A DNA stretch of 64,000 nt, taken from assembly GCF_004116625.1 (NCBI RefSeq), contig NZ_NXIE01000001.1:558001-622000 (forward strand), read 5' to 3'. The position numbers and the translations under genes were made by a program. This stretch comes from Halarcobacter mediterraneus (GTDB taxonomy: Bacteria; Campylobacterota; Campylobacteria; Campylobacterales; Arcobacteraceae). Below the pieces are notes generated by a model that had not been told where the DNA came from, did not search any database, and saw only the letters and a list, made by a program, of their open reading frames with translations. Position 1 is the first letter of the stretch. Every line of letters begins with the position of its first letter. This document shows, piece by piece, positions 13,347 to 35,531 of this stretch.

Positions 13347-14078
13347 TTATATATTATATTTATTTACAGTTAAAAATATTTCTTGCCCCAATTTATGTAG
13401 CTTTTCTAAGTCAAGCCTTACTGAAAGTCCAGAAATTCCAATCGTTGCAATAAGTTTGTTTTTTTGATTAAAATAAGGAACTGCAACAGACCTTAATCCA
13501 AACTCATACTCTTCATTACCAATAGCATAACCTCTTTCTTGAATTAAATCTAACTCTTTTTGAAGTTTTGATGTAGAAGTTATTGTATTACTTGTATATT
13601 TTTTTAGTTTTAAATTTTTCAATTCAATATCTGAAAAGGCTAATAATATTTTACCAAAAGCATTTGTATGAATAGGACTTTTTAAGCCTACTGAATTTCT
13701 AGTTTTTAAAACTCTATTAGAATTATCAATTTGATTTAAATATAATAAAGACCCCTCTTCAAAAACACCTAAATAAGAACTTTCACTTGAAAGTTCATGA
13801 ACTTCTTCTAATATTACTTTAGTTTTTTCTACTAATCTATCTCTATCTTCATCTTCTAAAATACTTTGCATAAAATCACTTAAAACTATTTCTTTACTAT
13901 TTTCTTTATATTCTATAAAACTTTCATCAATAAGTGTAGAGATTAATCTTGACATAGTACTTTTATCTATAAGAAGTTTTTGACATAGAGTATTTGCAGT
14001 AAGTGGTTGATTTGCCATCATTATCTCTTTTAGAATTTTTAAACCTCTAGATAAAGACTTATTTCTACTATTTTGCAC
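13347..14078 (-). CDS. IclR-family transcriptional regulator
   Basis: A 243-residue protein with an N-terminal winged helix-turn-helix (NSRNKSLSRGLKILKEIM... LIDKSTMSRLISTLIDESF, about 1-65) and a C-terminal IclR effector domain containing LGVFEEGSLLYLNQID, HTNAFGKILLAF, ERGYAIGNEEYEFGLRSVAVPY and IGISGLSVRL. Family members bind small organic acids and control catabolic or anaplerotic operons such as the glyoxylate shunt. It is divergent from the CoA cluster at 14440 and is probably its local regulator. The start is a GTG at 14078 with GGGAG nine bases upstream; the next in-frame ATG would cut the winged helix. Confidence 0.88.
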   Translation of the reverse strand: MQNSRNKSLSRGLKILKEIMMANQPLTANTLCQKLLIDKSTMSRLISTLIDESFIEYKENSKEIVLSDFMQSILEDEDRDRLVEKTKVILEEVHELSSESSYLGVFEEGSLLYLNQIDNSNRVLKTRNSVGLKSPIHTNAFGKILLAFSDIELKNLKLKKYTSNTITSTSKLQKELDLIQERGYAIGNEEYEFGLRSVAVPYFNQKNKLIATIGISGLSVRLDLEKLHKLGQEIFLTVNKYNI

Positions 14079-14439: not shown

Positions 14440-15573
14440 ATGACTGCATCAGTTGTAGATTTATCAAAACTAACAGCAAATGATGATTTAACTCCTGTGT
14501 TAGGTGGACACTGGCCTGGAATTCAAATCTATTATCCACCAATCAAATATAATCCATTAGATGGAAGTTATGAGACAATGGAACAAGCAAAGCTTAGATT
14601 ACAAAAGCATGCTTATAAAACAAAAGCTCATACTGTTTTATTTGATTTAGAAGATGGTTGTAGACAAAAAGCTATGTCAAGAAAACTTTTAATTGAGGAA
14701 TTACCAAAGTTCCCAGAAAGAGATTTTCAAATAGCTATTAGAATTAACCCTTTTAGAACAGATGAATATGAAGAAGATTTAAAAATGATTAAACAAGTGC
14801 ATAAATACATCGATGCAATTGTTTTAGCAAAAGCTGGGGAAGTTTATGGAAGTGCAGAGATTAGAGATTTATCTTCTTGGTTAGTTTCTATTGGAAGTAA
14901 TTTACAAATTCAACCAATTATAGAACATCCAAAGTCTTTACAAATTGCAGACAAATTAATGAGTCACTCTACAGTTAAACATGTAGTATTTGGTATTCAC
15001 GATTTCTCTAAAGCAATGGCTTATAAAATCACGCCTGAGGGTTGGATTGATGAGTTAGAGACTTTCTTTAATATGCTTACTATGGAAGCAAGAGTTAAAG
15101 GAAAAGGTGTAATTGGTGGGGTTGAAGTACTATTAACACCAAACTCTTTACCTGATTCTTGTGTTGAGAAAAAAGATATTAGAAGATGGTTGGATTTACA
15201 TGGTGATGATGCTTCAAGACATGTTTATGCCCATGCAAAAAGAGAAACTGCAATGGGATTAACAGGTAAACAAGTTATTACTCCAAATCATATTAATGTT
15301 TGTAAAGTTGCATTTACACCATCTCCTAAAGAGATTGCAAAAGATGTATCTATTTTAAGAGCTGCTATAGAAGCAGATGCATTATTATCAGGAGCAATTA
15401 GATATGAGGGAGAAATGTTAGATCCTCCAATGTTTGGTAAATCTTTACAAAACTTATTAAGAGCATATGCTTTAAATAGTCTTTCAAAAGAAGATGAAGC
15501 ATTTGCAGTAAATGTATTAAATAGAATGCCATTACATACATTTAAAGAAAACTGGCCATACGGTCTAATCTAA
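14440..15573 (+). CDS. CitE-like CoA-ester lyase (HpcH/HpaI aldolase family), long form
   Basis: A 377-residue TIM-barrel protein of the HpcH/HpaI aldolase, citrate lyase beta family, longer than the usual 280-320 residues. Family landmarks are DLEDG (69-73), the CoA/substrate Arg in RINPF (R101), and the two metal ligands E162 (PIIEHP) and D188 (FGIHDFSKAM), all intact. The additional C-terminal part has MLDPPMFGKSLQNLL. Such enzymes cleave or form malyl-CoA, methylmalyl-CoA or citramalyl-CoA. Its substrate cannot be told from sequence. It is the first gene of a plus-strand cluster with a CoA ligase fusion (18 bases downstream), a Mch-type hydratase and a second free CitE-like lyase, opposite an IclR regulator. 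Confidence 0.85.
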   Translation: MTASVVDLSKLTANDDLTPVLGGHWPGIQIYYPPIKYNPLDGSYETMEQAKLRLQKHAYKTKAHTVLFDLEDGCRQKAMSRKLLIEELPKFPERDFQIAIRINPFRTDEYEEDLKMIKQVHKYIDAIVLAKAGEVYGSAEIRDLSSWLVSIGSNLQIQPIIEHPKSLQIADKLMSHSTVKHVVFGIHDFSKAMAYKITPEGWIDELETFFNMLTMEARVKGKGVIGGVEVLLTPNSLPDSCVEKKDIRRWLDLHGDDASRHVYAHAKRETAMGLTGKQVITPNHINVCKVAFTPSPKEIAKDVSILRAAIEADALLSGAIRYEGEMLDPPMFGKSLQNLLRAYALNSLSKEDEAFAVNVLNRMPLHTFKENWPYGLI

Positions 15574-15591: not shown

Positions 15592-18111
15592 ATGAGTTCA
15601 ACTATTGAAATCGAAGTACCAGAATTTTTAAATATTGGTGTTGCTTGTACATCTGCACATCTTGGTACAAAAAAAGAAAACAATACTGCAATGATTATTG
15701 AAGATGATAAATTAGGAACTGATGAAATAACTTATAAAGATTTAGCTGAAAAATCTGACCAAGTTTGTAACTTCCTTACATCTATAGGAATTGGAGCTAG
15801 AGATAGAGTTTTAGTTTGTCTAAAAAATTCTTTAGCTTATCCAATTTCATTTTTTGGAAGTATTAAAGCAGGAATTATTGCTGTACCAACATCAACACTT
15901 TTAAGTGGTTCTGAAGTTAAATATTTAGCAGAAGACTCACAAGCAAGTGCAATTGTATTATCAGCTTCTATGTATGAAAACTTAGTTCCATACTTAGAAA
16001 ATCTTGATAACTTAAAAACAATTATTGTTGCAGCAACAGATAGTGTTGAAAATTTAAATAAACCTAAAGGTATTAAAGTTTATGCCTTAAATGATATCTT
16101 GAAAAATACAGATAAAACACCTAATCATTATAATTCAAAAGCTGGTGAACCTGCATACTTAGTATATACATCAGGAACAACTGGTTTCCCTAAAGGTGTT
16201 TTACATTCTCATAGATCATTAGTTGGAAGAACTCCTGCTACTGAATATTGGTTTAATTTTAAAGAGAATGATAGAATCATGCACTCTGGTAAGTTTAACT
16301 GGACATATGTATTAGGTTCTGCATTAATGGATCCATTATTTAATGGACATACTGTAATTGCATATGAAGGTGCAAATGATGCTTCTACATGGATTGATTT
16401 GATTAAAAAACATAAATGTACAATTTTTATTGGTGTACCAACAATTTATAGACAAATTATCCAAAAAACAGATTTCACAATTGAGAATTGCCCTAGCTTA
16501 AGATATTGTATGTCTGCTGGGGAGCACTTATCAACTGAAATGATTGAATTATGGAGAGAAAGATTTAAACAAGATATCTTTGAAGCAATTGGTATGTCTG
16601 AGTGTTCATACTACATTTCACACTCTGTTAATAATCCAATTAGACCAGGAAGTGCTGGTTTTGTTCAGCCAGGGCATACTGTTAAATTATTAAATCCTGA
16701 AACACTTGAAGAAGTTGGTGTTGAAGAAGAAGGTATGATTTGTATTGGAATTGATGACCCAGGTTTATTTTTAGAATACTGGCAACTTGAAGATGAAACA
16801 GCAAAAGCTAAACATGATGGATACTTCTTTACAGGAGATTATGCAAAAAAAGATAAAGATGGATACATCTGGTTTATTGGTAGAAAAGATGATATTATCA
16901 ATACTTTTGGATTTAGAGTATCACCACATGAAGTTGAAAGGGTTGTAAAAACTCATCCTTTAGTAGCAGATTGTGTAGCATTTGGTTTTGAACTTGCAAA
17001 AGATAAAACTTTAGTAGCTATTGCTGTAATTGGACATGAAGAATTAAATGAAGAACAACAAGAAGAAGTATTAAAATATTCTCAAGATAATCTTGCAAAA
17101 TATAAAGCACCAAAGAAAATTTTTGCAATGAAAGATTATCCAAGAACTAAAAATGGTAAAGTTCTTAGAAAACAACTTGTAAAAAATATTCATGAAGAAG
17201 AGCTTGCACACTCAAAAGGTGAAGAAGTAATAGAATATAAAGCTAGAAGATCTATGTTATTCGTACCGTCATACAATAAACATAATGTAGAAAAAGCTAA
17301 ATCTGTACTTGCTGACACTGTGATATTTGACCTAGAAGCTATTTTGCATGAGCAAAGAGAAGTTGGAAGAGAAGTTGTAAAAGATGTGTATAAAAACCAA
17401 GGTTGTAAGTTTGGTGAATCTGAAAGAATATTAAGAATCAACAATTTAGGGAGTGAAGACTTACAAAAAGATATTGAGTTAGCAAAAGAGATTGAACTTG
17501 ATGGTTTATTATTTTCTAAAATTGACTCAAAAGAAGATGTTCTAGAAGCAGCAAGAATTATTGATGAAGTTAATCCTGAGCTAACATTAATGATTATGAT
17601 TGAAACTCCAATGTCAGTATTAAATATTCAAGAAATTTGTGCTGCCAGTGATAGACTTGAAGTTGTAGTAGTTGGTTCAAATAAATTAGCAAATAGACTT
17701 CAAATTGATATTAAAAAAGGTTCTAAAGCAATGTTTAATTACCTATCACAAGTTGCACTTGCTGCTAAAGCATATGGTAAAACTGTTATTGATGGACCAC
17801 ATTTTGATGTTCATGATGAGTTTGCTTGCGAAGATTCAACTAAAGATGCATTTAATTTAGGTTTTGATGGTAAATCACTGATTCATCCTGTTCAAATTGA
17901 GTATATCAATGATATCTTTACGCCAAAACAAGCTGAAGTTTTAGAGTATGAAGAGATGATTAACTCTTATGAAGAAGCTAAAAAGCAAGGAAAAGAAGTA
18001 ATTATGCACAACAATAAACTTGTTGATGGTTCAAGAATCAAATGGGCTAAAAAAATGATTACTCTTTATGAAACATACAAATCATTAGGTCAAAACCTAT
18101 TTGATAAATAA
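15592..18111 (+). CDS. AMP-forming acyl-CoA ligase fused to a CitE-like domain
   Basis: An 839-residue two-enzyme fusion. Residues 1-535 are an AMP-forming acyl-CoA synthetase, closest in style to benzoate/acyl-CoA ligases: P-loop YTSGTTGFPKG (192-202), GMSECSY (334-340), TGDYAKKDKDGYIWFIGRKDD (414-434) and the catalytic Lys in TKNGK (K523). From 551 a CitE/HpcH domain begins (RRSMLFVPS), with R615 (RIN), E671 (MIETP) and GFDGKSLIHP (757-766). The metal-binding Asp of the usual GxNDLA motif is replaced by Lys (GSNKLA, K698), and DLED reads DLEA (A583). The lyase half may therefore be inactive, altered or only a binding domain. GGGAG precedes the ATG. An acid activated here could be passed to lyase chemistry, in cis or by the neighbouring CitE-like enzymes; the substrate is unknown. 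Confidence 0.85.
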   Translation: MSSTIEIEVPEFLNIGVACTSAHLGTKKENNTAMIIEDDKLGTDEITYKDLAEKSDQVCNFLTSIGIGARDRVLVCLKNSLAYPISFFGSIKAGIIAVPTSTLLSGSEVKYLAEDSQASAIVLSASMYENLVPYLENLDNLKTIIVAATDSVENLNKPKGIKVYALNDILKNTDKTPNHYNSKAGEPAYLVYTSGTTGFPKGVLHSHRSLVGRTPATEYWFNFKENDRIMHSGKFNWTYVLGSALMDPLFNGHTVIAYEGANDASTWIDLIKKHKCTIFIGVPTIYRQIIQKTDFTIENCPSLRYCMSAGEHLSTEMIELWRERFKQDIFEAIGMSECSYYISHSVNNPIRPGSAGFVQPGHTVKLLNPETLEEVGVEEEGMICIGIDDPGLFLEYWQLEDETAKAKHDGYFFTGDYAKKDKDGYIWFIGRKDDIINTFGFRVSPHEVERVVKTHPLVADCVAFGFELAKDKTLVAIAVIGHEELNEEQQEEVLKYSQDNLAKYKAPKKIFAMKDYPRTKNGKVLRKQLVKNIHEEELAHSKGEEVIEYKARRSMLFVPSYNKHNVEKAKSVLADTVIFDLEAILHEQREVGREVVKDVYKNQGCKFGESERILRINNLGSEDLQKDIELAKEIELDGLLFSKIDSKEDVLEAARIIDEVNPELTLMIMIETPMSVLNIQEICAASDRLEVVVVGSNKLANRLQIDIKKGSKAMFNYLSQVALAAKAYGKTVIDGPHFDVHDEFACEDSTKDAFNLGFDGKSLIHPVQIEYINDIFTPKQAEVLEYEEMINSYEEAKKQGKEVIMHNNKLVDGSRIKWAKKMITLYETYKSLGQNLFDK

Positions 18112-18121
18112 GGAGAGAGAC

Positions 18122-19183
18122 GTGTCTAATAAGATAAATATGGGAAACTTTTTTGAAGATTTTTCAATAGGACAAAAAATAGTACACCCTCTTCCTAGAA
18201 CAATCACTGATGGTGATGTATCTTTATACATCGCTTTCACTGGTTCTAGATTTTCTTTACACTCATCTGATGTAGTAGCAAAAGAAATGGGTTATGAGAA
18301 AAGACCAATTGATGATGTACTAATGTTCCACTTAACTTTTGGAAAGTCAGTACAAGATATTTCATTAAATGCCATTGCTAACTTAGGTTATGCAGAGATT
18401 TCATTCCCAAATCCAGTTTATATTGGAGATACAGTTTCTATGACTTCAACTGTGATTGGATTAAAAGAGAATTCAAATGGTAAATCTGGAGTTGTTTATG
18501 TTCACTCTATTGGTGTAAACCAAAAAAATGAAGAAGTACTTAACTTCAAAAGATGGGTTATGGTTCATAAAAAAGATAAGACTACAACTACAGGTATCAA
18601 AGAGATCCCAGAGTTTAAAGAATCAACTCCAATTTTAGATGAGATTAATATTCCTCAAATCAAATGTGTTGATACTAATGCTTCTGGTGGAAGCTTCTTT
18701 TTTGAAGATTATGAAAAAGGTGAAAGACTAAATCACCCAGAGGGTATTACAGTTGATAATAGTGACCATACTTTAGCAACTAAGTTATACCAAAACAATG
18801 CGAAGGTTCATTTCAATGACCATATGATGAAATCTACTCCTATGAAAGAGAGATTAATGTATGGTGGAATTGTTATCTCTATGGCAAGAGCAATTTCATT
18901 TAATGGCTTACAAAATGCACAATGGATGTATGCTATTAATAGTGGAGCTCATGCTAACCCAACATATGCAGGAGATACTATCTATGCATACACAGAAGTG
19001 ATTGATACTATTGATCATAAAAGAGATGATATTGGTTTATTAAGATTAAGAACAGTTGCTGTTAAAAATCAAAAACCCCAAGAGATTGAAACACCAAAAG
19101 GTGAAGATGGTAAGTACTTAAAAAATGTAGTACTTGATTTAGATTACACTGTTGTAATCCCAAAGAAAAAAACAAAAAAATAA
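18122..19183 (+). CDS. mch: Mesaconyl-CoA hydratase-like MaoC double-hotdog protein
   Basis: A 353-residue MaoC-type hydratase with two hotdog halves. The N-terminal half (NFFEDFSIGQ, TDGDVSLYIAFTGSRF, DDVLMFHLTFGKSVQDISLN, ANLGYAEISF, VIGLKENSNGKSGVVYV) is very close to what I recall of the mesaconyl-C1-CoA hydratase Mch of Rhodobacter and Chloroflexus. That enzyme interconverts beta-methylmalyl-CoA and mesaconyl-C1-CoA. The second half repeats the FEDYEKGERLNHPEGITV pattern. The start is GTG at 18122, six bases after AAGGAG. An upstream in-frame TTG has no such site. It follows the ligase fusion by ten bases. Mch strongly suggests C5-dicarboxyl-CoA chemistry for the whole cluster. Confidence 0.8.
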   Translation: MSNKINMGNFFEDFSIGQKIVHPLPRTITDGDVSLYIAFTGSRFSLHSSDVVAKEMGYEKRPIDDVLMFHLTFGKSVQDISLNAIANLGYAEISFPNPVYIGDTVSMTSTVIGLKENSNGKSGVVYVHSIGVNQKNEEVLNFKRWVMVHKKDKTTTTGIKEIPEFKESTPILDEINIPQIKCVDTNASGGSFFFEDYEKGERLNHPEGITVDNSDHTLATKLYQNNAKVHFNDHMMKSTPMKERLMYGGIVISMARAISFNGLQNAQWMYAINSGAHANPTYAGDTIYAYTEVIDTIDHKRDDIGLLRLRTVAVKNQKPQEIETPKGEDGKYLKNVVLDLDYTVVIPKKKTKK

Positions 19184-19330: not shown

Positions 19331-20314
19331 ATGACACACCCTAATGAAGCACTATTTGAATCTGGAAAATCTTTACCGATTATTCCTACTTGTGAGCACT
19401 TTGCAGGAAGCGAAAAGCTAATCAAAAAAGGTTTTGAGATGCAAAGAAAACTTGGACCTGTTTTTGATATCACTTGTGATTGTGAAGATGGAGCTGAGAC
19501 TGGTAAAGAAGTTGAACATGCAGAAATGATTGTTAGAGTTGTAAATTCAGAAGATAATCCATATGCAATGGCAGGTACACGAATCCATGATTTCTCTCAT
19601 CCAGATTGGAGACAAGATGTTGATATTTTAGTACCAGGAGCTGGTGAAAAATTAGCATATATTACATTACCAAAATCTACTTCTTATGAAGATGTAAAAA
19701 CTCAAGTTGAATATGTTCAAAAAGTGGCAAAAGAAGCTGGTATTTCAAGAGAAATTCCAATTCATATCTTAATTGAGACTCATGGTGCATTACAAGATGT
19801 TGAAAAAATCGCTACATTACCATGGTTACAAGTATTAGATTTTGGTTTAATGGACTTTGTATCAGGATACCAAGGTGCTATTCCTGCAATTAATATGAGA
19901 AGTCCAGGTCAATTTGACCATAGATTAATTGCAGCTGCTAAAGCAAAAGTTGCACAAGCTGCTATTCAAAATCATGTTATTCCTGCACACAATGTAACAT
20001 TAGACCTTAAAAATCCATACCAAACTTATAAAGACGCCCAAAGAGCTAGAAATGAGTTTGGATTTATGAGAATGTGGTCAATTTACCCAACACAAGTACA
20101 AGCTATTGTTGATGCAATGAAACCAGACTTTACTGAGTTAGAAGCTGCACAAAATATTTTATTAGCTGCACAAGATGCTGAGTGGGGACCAATTCAATAT
20201 GATGGTGAGTTACACGATAGAGCAACTTATAGATATTTCTGGGAACTAGTTCAAAGAGCAAAATTCTCTGGTGCTAAATTATTAGATGATGTTGAAAAAA
20301 GATTTTTTGCATAA
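19331..20314 (+). CDS. Malyl-/methylmalyl-CoA lyase-like CitE-family enzyme
   Basis: A 327-residue HpcH/HpaI-family lyase of a subgroup different from the 377-residue protein. Its landmarks are CDCEDGAETGKE (49-60), R84 (GTRIHDFSHP) and metal ligands E149 (ILIETHG) and D175 (DFGLMDFVSG), followed by AINMRSPGQFDHRLI and MWSIYPTQVQAIV, all consistent with an active enzyme. I infer a malyl-CoA or beta-methylmalyl-CoA lyase (glyoxylate plus acetyl- or propionyl-CoA) because it sits next to the Mch-type hydratase. AAGGAATTTATT precedes the ATG. It lies 147 bases after mch, separated by two hairpins, and may be transcribed with or without the upstream genes. Citramalyl-CoA lyase activity is an alternative. 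Confidence 0.82.
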   Translation: MTHPNEALFESGKSLPIIPTCEHFAGSEKLIKKGFEMQRKLGPVFDITCDCEDGAETGKEVEHAEMIVRVVNSEDNPYAMAGTRIHDFSHPDWRQDVDILVPGAGEKLAYITLPKSTSYEDVKTQVEYVQKVAKEAGISREIPIHILIETHGALQDVEKIATLPWLQVLDFGLMDFVSGYQGAIPAINMRSPGQFDHRLIAAAKAKVAQAAIQNHVIPAHNVTLDLKNPYQTYKDAQRARNEFGFMRMWSIYPTQVQAIVDAMKPDFTELEAAQNILLAAQDAEWGPIQYDGELHDRATYRYFWELVQRAKFSGAKLLDDVEKRFFA

Positions 20315-20569: not shown

Positions 20570-21412
20570 ATGAATAGATATCATTTAAATATTGAAGAAT
20601 TAAAAGATTATTTAGGTTTTGGTGTTGCAGGAAACTTTGCAAATCATTTAGGTGAAGCAGGAGAAGCTGACGAATTTTCTGTTATAAAAACAGAAGAAAA
20701 AGATGCTCCAAAAGGACTTTTCCCTTTTTATATTCCAAATCATAACAGTTTTTTAGGTAACTTTCCTATTAGTTCAGATAAAGTAAATCATAACAATATA
20801 GAACATCTTCAAGTTGAAGCTGAAGTTGCCCTACTTTGTGATTTTGTATATGAAAATGATAAATTAATAGATATTATTCCTAAATATTTTGGAGCATTTA
20901 ATGACTGTTCAAATCGAATTCAAGATGGAAATAAATTAAGTACTAAAAAAAACTGGGGAGAGAACTCAAAAGGAATTTCAAATGATTTAATAAAAATTGA
21001 TTCTTTTGAAGAAGATGGAATTTTAAATAAATATCATATTGCTTCTTTCATTAGAAGAAATGGAATTTTAAAAGATTATGGAACAGTTAGTGCAGTAAGA
21101 TCATACTCTTACTTTTTTAAACAATTAAAAGATTGGATGATTGATAAATTTAATACCCAAGAAGATATGGGACCATTAGAAGAACTTAAACCTTTTATAA
21201 AATATATGAATAAGTATAAAGGTCTTTTAATAGCTGCAGGAGCAACTGCTTATACTGATTTTGGGAAAACTCATTTTTTAGAAAAAGGTGATGAAATTTT
21301 TGTTTATGTTTATGATGCACACTTTCATTCTTTTGAAGATATAATGCAAGATATGTCAGGAATGGATTTACATCTTTCTAAATGTAGTAAATTACATCAA
21401 ATCGTAGAATAA
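20570..21412 (+). CDS. DUF5718-like protein, possible FAH-superfamily relative
   Basis: A 280-residue soluble protein. I associate the segments FGVAGNFANHLGEAGEADEF, FPFYIPNHNSFLGNFPIS and LQVEAEVALLCDF with DUF5718, found in Campylobacterota. The E-x-E-x2-LL pattern and the length recall the fumarylacetoacetate hydrolase superfamily, whose members act on keto acids, but metal-ligand identity is not established. RAGAT-like catalytic motifs of other families are absent. GAGGTAAAAAA precedes the ATG. It lies 255 bases after the lyase gene, with a hairpin and a possible small peptide between, so operon membership is uncertain. It ends in a strong terminator. Confidence 0.6.
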   Translation: MNRYHLNIEELKDYLGFGVAGNFANHLGEAGEADEFSVIKTEEKDAPKGLFPFYIPNHNSFLGNFPISSDKVNHNNIEHLQVEAEVALLCDFVYENDKLIDIIPKYFGAFNDCSNRIQDGNKLSTKKNWGENSKGISNDLIKIDSFEEDGILNKYHIASFIRRNGILKDYGTVSAVRSYSYFFKQLKDWMIDKFNTQEDMGPLEELKPFIKYMNKYKGLLIAAGATAYTDFGKTHFLEKGDEIFVYVYDAHFHSFEDIMQDMSGMDLHLSKCSKLHQIVE

Positions 21413-32498: not shown

Positions 32499-33995
32499 AT
32501 GGGAAAGATTACTGAAAATGATATTATTAATAGTATTGCAGATGCCTGTCAATACATCTCTTTTTATCATCCAGAAGACTTCGTAAAAGGGATGGTTGAG
32601 GCTTATGAAAAAGAGGAGTCTGAATCAGCAAAAAATGCAATAGGTCAAATTTTAATAAACTCTAAAATGTGTGCAATGGGACATAGACCTTTATGTCAAG
32701 ATACTGGTTCTGTAAATATTTTCATCAAAGTTGGTTTAAAAGCCGATTTAGATATTTCAAAAGACTTAGAAGAACTTTTAAATGCAGGTGTAGCAAAAGG
32801 TTATACTGATCCAGATAATACATTAAGATATTCTGTTGTATCTGATCCAGCAGGTGAAAGAAAAAATACAAAAAACAATACTCCAGCAGTAATTCACTAC
32901 TCAGTAGATGCAAACTCTGATAAACTTGATATTACAGTTGCAGCTAAAGGTGGAGGAAGTGAAAACAAATCTAAATTTGCAGTATTAAATCCATCTGATT
33001 CTATTTATGATTGGGTAATGTCAAATGTTGAACAAATGGGTGCAGGATGGTGTCCTCCAGGAATTTTAGGTATTGGTATTGGTGGAAACCCTGAAAAATC
33101 AATGCTACTTGCAAAAGAAGCTTTAATGGGACATGTAGATATTCATGAACTTAAAGCAAGAGGTCCTCAAAATGCCCTAGAAGAATTAAGACTCAAATTA
33201 TATGAAGATATCAATAAAATAGGAATTGGAGCGCAAGGGCTTGGTGGTTTAACAACAGTTCTTGATGTTAAAATTTTAGATTATCCATGTCACGCAGCTT
33301 CTTTACCTGTAGCTATGATTCCTAACTGTGCAGCAACAAGACATATTCATTTTGAACTTGATGGAAATGGAGCAGCTAAATTCAACAAACCTGATTTAGA
33401 TCTTTGGCCAGATATTGAACTTCCAATGGATACAATAAAAAGAGTAAATATTGAAGATTTAACAAAAGAAAATTTATCTCAATTTAAATCTGGTGATACT
33501 TTATTGTTATCAGGGAAAATTCTAACAGCAAGGGATGCAGCTCACAAAAAAATTGTTGAGTATAAAAATGCTGGTAAACCACTTCCAAATGGTGTTGACT
33601 TAAAAGGTAGATTTATTTATTACGTTGGACCTGTTGATCCAGTAAGAGATGAAAAAGTTGGACCTGCAGGACCAACAACTTCTACAAGAATGGATAAGTT
33701 TACTAAAGATATGATGGAAATTGGTATTATGGGGATGATTGGTAAAGCTGAAAGAAAGCAACCAACAATTGATTTAATTAAAGAGTATAAATCAATGTAC
33801 TTAATTGCAACTGGTGGAGCTGCTTATTTAATTTCACAATCTATTAAAGATGCAAAAGTTCTAGCATTTGAAGAAATGGGAATGGAAGCAATTTATGAAT
33901 TTGAAGTAAAAGATATGCCTGTAACTGTAGCAGTTGATACAGAAGGTACTTCTATTCATACAACTGGTCCAGCTAAATGGAGAAGTATTAAATAA
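32499..33995 (+). CDS. Class I fumarate hydratase (iron-sulfur), possible mesaconase
   Basis: A 498-residue class I fumarase with the alpha and beta parts fused. Landmarks are CQDTGSVNIF (C66), the stretch NTKNNTPAVIHYSV, AAKGGGSENKSKF, MGAGWCPPGILGIGIGG, GIGAQGLGGLTTVLDVKI, PCHAASLPVAMIPNCAATRH (further cluster Cys candidates) and the C-terminal LLLSGKILTARDAAHKK... GPAGPTTSTRMDKF. It should be an oxygen-sensitive 4Fe-4S hydratase converting fumarate to malate. The sequence is of the fused single-chain kind found in Burkholderia, where, as I recall, a class I fumarase also hydrates mesaconate to citramalate. A class II fumarase lies next door, and a Mch/CitE cluster lies 12 kb upstream, which makes a mesaconase role worth considering. 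GGTTATAGA before the ATG is a modest binding site. Confidence 0.92.
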   Translation: MGKITENDIINSIADACQYISFYHPEDFVKGMVEAYEKEESESAKNAIGQILINSKMCAMGHRPLCQDTGSVNIFIKVGLKADLDISKDLEELLNAGVAKGYTDPDNTLRYSVVSDPAGERKNTKNNTPAVIHYSVDANSDKLDITVAAKGGGSENKSKFAVLNPSDSIYDWVMSNVEQMGAGWCPPGILGIGIGGNPEKSMLLAKEALMGHVDIHELKARGPQNALEELRLKLYEDINKIGIGAQGLGGLTTVLDVKILDYPCHAASLPVAMIPNCAATRHIHFELDGNGAAKFNKPDLDLWPDIELPMDTIKRVNIEDLTKENLSQFKSGDTLLLSGKILTARDAAHKKIVEYKNAGKPLPNGVDLKGRFIYYVGPVDPVRDEKVGPAGPTTSTRMDKFTKDMMEIGIMGMIGKAERKQPTIDLIKEYKSMYLIATGGAAYLISQSIKDAKVLAFEEMGMEAIYEFEVKDMPVTVAVDTEGTSIHTTGPAKWRSIK

Positions 33996-34133: not shown

Positions 34134-35531
34134 ATGAATTATAGAATTGAAAAAGATACTATGGGAGAAATGCAAGTTCCAAATGATAAATATTGGGCAG
34201 CTCAAACACAAAGAAGTGTAGAAAACTTTCCAATTGGAAATGAAAAAATGCCTAAAGAAGTTGTAGAAGGATTTGCTTATTTAAAAAAAGCTTGCGCTAT
34301 TGTTAATAATAAATTAGAAAGATTAGATAATACAAAATGTGATGCAATAAAACAAGCTTGCGATGAAGTAATAGAAGGGAAACTAGAAGGGAATTTTCCT
34401 TTAGTAGTTTGGCAAACGGGTTCAGGAACTCAGTCAAATATGAATATGAATGAAGTTGTGGCAAATAGAGCTAGTGAGATTTTAGGGAAAGACTTTAGAA
34501 AAGAAAAAGCTGTACATCCAAATGATGATGTAAATAAAGGACAAAGTTCAAATGACACCTACCCTACTGCGATGAGAATTGCATTTGTTCTTGAACTACA
34601 AAAGCAATTAATACCTGCAATTAATAAACTAAAAACAACATTTGAAAAGAAAAGTGAAGAGTTTAAAGATATTGTAAAAATTGGAAGAACACATTTACAA
34701 GATGCAACGCCACTTACATTAGGTCAAGAATTATCAGCCTATGTTGATATGTTAGATAAAGCTTTATTACAAGTAGATGATAGTATGAAATATTTAGTTG
34801 AACTTGCTATTGGAGGAACTGCTGTTGGAACAGGATTGAACTCTCATCCTGATTTTTCACCTATGGTTTGTGAAGTATTAAATGAACAAACAAATACAAA
34901 ATATAGCTTTAAATCACATCCAAATAAATTCCATGCTTTAACTGCACATGATGGGGAAGTTGTTTTAAGTGGAGCTTTAAATGCTTTAGCTTCAAATCTT
35001 ATGAAAATAGCAAATGATATTAGATGGTTAGCTTCAGGACCAAGATGTGGAATTGGAGAACTTAATATTCCTGAAAATGAACCAGGAAGCTCAATTATGC
35101 CTGGAAAAGTAAATCCTACACAAAGTGAAGCTATGACTATGGTTGCAGTTCAAGTTATGGGGAATCATACAACAGTTTCAGTTGCAGCTAGTCAAGGTAA
35201 TTTTGAGCTAAATGTATTTAAACCAGTTATTGCTTATAATATTTTACAAGCTATAAAATTATTAAGTGATACAATGCTTGCTTTTAATGATAAATGTGCA
35301 GTAGGAATAGAAGCAAACAAAGAAAATATTAATAAATATTTAAATGATTCTTTAATGCTAGTAACAGCACTTAATCCATATATTGGATATGAAAATGCAG
35401 CAAAAATTGCAAAAACAGCTCATAAAAATGGAACAACATTAAAAGAAGAAGCTATTAAACTTGGATTATTAAGCGAAGAAGAGTTTGATAAATATGTAAA
35501 ACCTGAAGAAATGACTTATCCAAAAAAATAA
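34134..35531 (+). CDS. fumC: Class II fumarate hydratase
   Basis: A 465-residue homotetrameric fumarase that needs no iron-sulfur cluster. [22 protein letters not shown], the substrate-site segments [18 protein letters not shown] and [37 protein letters not shown], and the signature [13 protein letters not shown] are intact and the length is standard. AAAGG lies six bases before the ATG. Having FumC beside a class I enzyme gives an oxygen-stable and an oxygen-labile fumarase, or frees the class I enzyme for another substrate. Confidence 0.97.

Follow-up and report, generated by a model that had tools for sequence, protein, structure and literature searches.

The window, i.e. the whole 64,000-nucleotide stretch of Halarcobacter mediterraneus DNA analysed here, contains a cluster of genes in which a ligase and a CitE-like protein are encoded as one chain (Table 1). 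The original prediction, made from the letters alone, held that a single frame of 839 residues joins a complete AMP-forming ligase with an intact K523 to a CitE-like barrel, and both the reading frame and its Pfam matches above cut-off (AMP-binding, residues 29-397; AMP-binding_C, 447-523; HpcH_HpaI, 553-766) confirm it. The first half is an ANL ligase by its AMP-binding and C-terminal domains and by the catalytic A10 Lys, K523, in the motif PRTKNGK; it also carries YTSGTTGFPKG and GRKDDIINTFGFR, with a P-loop and an A8 motif among its features. Position 523 is Lys in every fusion aligned, and the closest solved chains to this domain are 3etc, 4wv3 and 8biq. For the substrate class, no NCBIfam equivalog was above its cut-off among the 25 best matches; from gene context only, the ligase product is predicted to be a C4/C5 dicarboxyl-CoA, probably mesaconyl- or citramalyl-CoA.

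Table 1. Features of the ligase/CitE locus, with positions counted from the first letter of the window (MCLR, malyl-CoA lyase of Rhodobacter)
Feature	Position	Strand	Details
IclR-family regulator, divergent from the cluster	13347..14078	-	Pfam IclR_C 3e-34; many relatives also have it adjacent to citE1
citE1, CitE-like lyase	14440..15573	+	377 aa, catalytic residues complete; PF03328 6e-8
Ligase/CitE fusion ORF	15592..18111	+	839 aa, ATG start; whole length kept in 38/61 family genomes
AMP-forming acyl-CoA ligase domain	15592..17181	+	Residues 1-530, with K523; PF00501 5e-73, PF13193 2e-10
CitE-like barrel and lid, metal Asp lost	17236..18108	+	Residues 549-839; PF03328 3e-32; domain model
K698 codon, Mg2+-binding Asp position	17683..17685	+	Aligned to MCLR Asp168
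D812 codon, lid Asp	18025..18027	+	MCLR Asp299 equivalent; invariant, 70/70 fusions covering the position
Mesaconyl-CoA hydratase-like double hot-dog protein (MaoC)	18101..19183	+	phmmer 3e-110 to 4e3e, 8e-100 to 8hgn
citE3, second complete CitE-like lyase	19331..20314	+	327 aa; phmmer 3e-140 to 3qqw
Single-chain class I fumarase, candidate mesaconase	32499..33995	+	PF05681 match at G000:C1:590529-591353

Gene neighbourhood and distribution of the fusion

The fusion is flanked by two complete CitE-like lyases, a circumstance absent from the argument of the original prediction. The order citE1 - fusion - maoC - citE3 is held in all relatives with flanks available, and the 38 of 61 family genomes that have the fusion are exactly those that have maoC. 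The solved enzymes closest to the MaoC protein are a MaoC domain dehydratase (4e3e) and beta-methylmalyl-CoA dehydratase (8hgn). The best NCBIfam match of the divergent IclR regulator is BhcR, under its cut-off, and a DUF5718 protein (20570-21412) follows the cluster both in the window and in most relatives. In many relatives the class I fumarase comes immediately after citE3; in the window it lies about 12 kb away, with a FumC-like class II fumarase ORF (34134-35531) right behind it, and this adjoining ORF may leave the class I enzyme available for a different substrate. Single-chain class I fumarases of about 500 aa are present in most genomes with the fusion cluster, and 18 of the 23 family genomes without the cluster possess only a split-type PF05681 frame of about 285 aa, a distribution that may reflect either phylogeny or a role as mesaconase.

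All fusions in the sampled family genomes (38 of 61) were matched over essentially their whole length, and a second family contributes a few more fusions. Among 397 sampled genomes of the phylum, 39 carry the fusion; these belong to two families only, outside of which none was found in this sample. In the plasmid collection, the annotated records examined hold only separate, adjoining ligase and CitE genes, and on four plasmids the CitE gene next to the ligase retains the metal Asp; ligases at 35% identity were also seen on Methylobacterium plasmids, in records without annotation. The wider scan of genome contigs was queried with peptides of the window protein, so that distant fusions could escape it. 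In the tree, the fused domains form one well-supported clade, whose placement among the unfused CitE proteins involves long branches and weak support.

Loss of the metal-binding Asp in the fused domain

With a PF03328 score of 112 bits against a cut-off of 25, the C-terminal domain is homologous to the CitE-like (HpcH/HpaI) superfamily. An AlphaFold2 model of the domain (mean pLDDT 90), with which the full-length model agrees, predicts a TIM barrel with a C-terminal lid of two helices (238-256 and 271-289 in model numbering) and a hairpin between them. Compared with human CLYBL and malyl-CoA lyases, the model reaches Z values of about 33 and an rmsd of 2.5-3.2 over 281-286 residues at 24-26% identity.

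In MCLR, the malyl-CoA lyase of Rhodobacter, Glu141 and Asp168 bind Mg2+, Glu44 and Asp45 (the Glu-Asp pair of the DLED motif) hold the Mg2+ waters, and Arg76 and the lid Asp299 are catalytic (Zarzycki and Kerfeld 2013, PMC3832036). The Mg2+ pair and the DLED pair were termed absolutely conserved in the superfamily; Arg76 and the lid Asp299 are likewise reported as conserved in it, except that the thioesterase group carries Glu instead of Asp299 (PMC3832036). In the fusion, the positions of Glu141, Asp168, Glu44, Asp45, Arg76 and Asp299 correspond to E671, K698, E582, a deletion, R615 and D812, respectively. Of the Mg2+ pair, Glu671 is thus present and the Asp is replaced by Lys698; of the pair holding the waters, Glu582 is present and the Asp is deleted. 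The catalytic Arg (R615 in the window protein) is Lys in 7 of 71 fusions, E671 is Asp in 7 of 71, and the lid Asp occurs in all fusions that cover its position.

The original prediction fares well on most of these points: R615, E671 and GFDGKSLIHP are all present, the replacement of the GxND Asp by Lys is borne out by phmmer alignments to 4l9y and 5vxc, gap-free around the site, and by MAFFT, and both these alignments and the published enzyme (PMC3832036) agree that what is lost here belongs to the Mg2+-binding Glu/Asp pair of the family. Its statement that DLED reads DLEA (A583) needs to be amended, as the loss of the Asp stands, but a one-residue deletion that removes the second Asp in all 71 aligned fusions describes the change better than a substitution does. 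It had also proposed a profile search on whether K698 is conserved, and the Lys is not: across 70 aligned fusions the position holds K (51), N (9), T (5), S (2), R (2) or A (1) and never D or E. Judged from these alignments, the conserved feature at 698 is the lack of an acidic residue and not the Lys itself. We looked for an ND in the true alignment and for another acidic residue at the metal position and found neither, all fusions being non-acidic at 698.

Three alignments rule out that a shift masks the Asp, and since the loss is family-wide it is neither a sequencing error nor a mutation of a single strain. Lys698 as a new catalytic residue is ruled out by its lack of conservation and the repeated changes at this position. 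We also considered substitute metal ligands among the acidic positions invariant in the fusions, reading them against alignment and secondary structure; E743, D759 and D774 match acidic residues in malyl-CoA lyase or in unfused relatives, E747 lies in a helix, and all were rejected.

The paralogues alongside are intact. In citE1 the equivalents of D42, E44, D45, R76, K107, E141, D168 and D299 are invariant in 61 of 61 relatives, in citE3 every catalytic residue checked is invariant in 44 of 44, and among unfused CitE relatives in the order the metal Asp is kept in 19 of 19 (the fusion fragment L090 left out). By sequence and modelled fold, the fused domain is a superfamily homologue that fails two defining catalytic features and, for this reason, should not be classed as a lyase; annotations that would name it a malyl-CoA or citrate lyase are hereby corrected. 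In the literature searched we found no report of this loss of the metal site.

The fused domain is under purifying selection. Its dN/dS lies at about 0.05-0.25, compared with about 0.04-0.15 in the ligase, i.e. mostly higher and far under 1; 66 of its positions are invariant across the fusions, and none of the fusions sampled has dropped it. Many of the more distantly related pairs give the domain a dN/dS about 1.5-2.5 times the ligase value, so its constraint is partly relaxed. By parsimony on the tree of 70 fusions, position 698 changed 8 times (median for the domain, 4), and K643 (the position of MCLR Lys107, Lys in all unfused relatives) changed 9 times; further positions invariant in unfused relatives are freed as well (R615 to K, E671 to D, E582 to Q or A). 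Zero changes were counted at D812, G757, D759, G760, K761, H765, P766, Q768, F776 and P778. The most divergent fusions, L122 and L124, soften more of the active-site residues: in L122 E582 has become Q, in L124 R615 has become K, and both carry D instead of E671.

Pathway setting, possible roles and known systems

Both the fusion and a pathway idea are already published. In Arcobacter butzleri RM4018 the orthologous cluster AB1917-AB1921 was noted to contain a CaiC-CitE fusion (AB1918) and was proposed to interconvert glyoxylate + propionyl-CoA and pyruvate + acetyl-CoA (Miller et al. 2007, PMC2147049). In the passages of that paper cited here, the CitE domain is taken as a possible malyl-CoA lyase and its missing metal Asp goes unmentioned; the window differs from the cluster described there in the distant class I fumarase. 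What is new is that the metal site has been lost throughout the family, beside intact paralogues. Our searches around the cluster fit the 2007 proposal (PMC2147049). The family III CoA transferase PF02515 was not found in 14 of the 16 genomes of the genus, the source genome included, and of the isocitrate lyase (ICL) superfamily only proteins of about 300 aa were found, which match a short part of the model and, from their size, seem methylisocitrate lyase-like. Given this absence and these short proteins, it is plausible that the route passes through free mesaconate or citramalate and so requires a ligase; class I fumarases are able to hydrate mesaconate, i.e. act as mesaconase (PMC4682846). 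Malate synthase is present in 7 of 61 sampled family genomes. The source genome is one of the seven (a 724-aa frame at G000:C5:87461-88183) and hence has a second outlet for glyoxylate. The locus therefore bears on the handling of glyoxylate and propionyl-CoA in Arcobacter-type bacteria, most of which are without malate synthase.

On balance, we infer that the fused domain is somewhat more probably than otherwise a pseudo-lyase, kept as a module for CoA-ester binding and assembly that couples the ligase to the active lyases within a gene cluster for glyoxylate/propionyl-CoA and mesaconate/citramalate. The barrel would be unable to build the Mg2+ site and would consequently perform no C-C lyase catalysis of the family type, and the domain would be kept for binding CoA thioesters and for assembly; because E671 remains in most members, it might still bind metal weakly. 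Published malyl-CoA lyases form trimers or hexamers, and the C-terminal lid of each subunit closes the active site of the adjacent one (PMC3832036). The fused domain would most likely join an assembly of this kind, either with further copies of itself or with active citE1 or citE3 subunits, or both, and thereby put the ligase beside the lyases, with its intact lid D812 possibly lent to an active neighbour. A lost metal site combined with an invariant lid Asp is what one would expect of a partner subunit, although D812 may be structural: in the models it stands immediately before the last helix, and its invariance could have this basis. That the pseudo-lyase is an obligate partner subunit, which co-assembles with citE1 and/or citE3, supplies the lid Asp and belongs to a ligase-lyase (perhaps also hydratase) complex passing on acyl-CoA intermediates, is the more specific and less certain version of the binding and assembly role. 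We weight it below the latter and offer it tentatively; a fusion homotrimer would need no partner. If true, it would represent a CitE-superfamily metabolon built around a pseudoenzyme.

Other readings share part of this evidence. Two of the options in the original prediction, a substrate-binding module and a partner of a neighbouring lyase, fit our results; its third, an altered lyase, does not fit in a form based on K698, as this position is freer than most and the Lys gives way to N, T, S, R or A in sister lineages. A broader form of that third option, a metal-independent or otherwise altered enzyme in which Lys or another side chain takes the place of Mg2+ and another reaction runs on the same CoA esters (e.g. 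hydrolysis of mesaconyl-CoA or malyl-CoA), would suit the good conservation of the domain and the fact that most members retain Arg615, Glu671 and the lid Asp, and the proposed pathway indeed misses a step removing CoA from mesaconyl-CoA, given the absence of the PF02515 transferase noted above. However, K643 and R615 vary along with K698, and a divalent metal is reportedly needed by all characterised CitE-like enzymes, the thioesterase included (PMC3832036); we regard such an enzyme as improbable, and a new metal-free reaction built on Lys698 itself is unlikely.

It is similarly doubtful that the domain merely trimerises the ligase, with no link to other lyases. The trimeric or hexameric state of CitE-like enzymes (PMC3832036) and the complete fold, lid included, agree with a plain homo-oligomerisation tag, which leaves unexplained, however, why the fusion is so strictly linked to two paralogous lyases and a hydratase and, unless the residue is structural, why the active-site lid Asp is invariant. 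The relaxed catalytic positions and the faster evolution of the domain relative to the ligase could alternatively suggest that an old bifunctional enzyme is decaying here and its remnant is being lost, but a dN/dS far below unity, the 66 invariant positions and an intact domain in all fusions, throughout one family and part of a second, make this very improbable. The interest of the locus is that residues described as absolutely conserved in CitE-like enzymes have been lost across a whole bacterial family, with the domain retained and two intact paralogues alongside, which provides a clean natural test of non-catalytic roles of a lyase domain.

Among known proteins, the malyl-CoA/beta-methylmalyl-CoA lyases (5ugr, 4l9y) and human CLYBL (5vxc) have the barrel and lid of the fusion and the Glu, Arg and lid Asp in common with it; they differ from the fusion, in which the Mg2+ Asp is replaced, the DLED Asp deleted and a ligase fused on. 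Itaconate and mesaconate degradation by RipABC (PMC4682846) resembles the cluster in combining a hydratase with a CitE-like lyase and in the class I fumarase as mesaconase. Unlike that system, the cluster has no RipA-type transferase, and the NCBIfam models of the other components score far under their cut-offs (RipB_Ich 117 bits vs 340; RipC_Ccl 55 and 40 vs 375). A segment of the 3-hydroxypropionate bi-cycle in Chloroflexus and Ca. Kentron (PMC6593406) employs the same types of hydratase and lyase as found here and likewise connects propionyl-CoA + glyoxylate with acetyl-CoA + pyruvate; those organisms, however, use CoA transferases and a C4-hydratase, in place of which a ligase and a class I fumarase would be required here.
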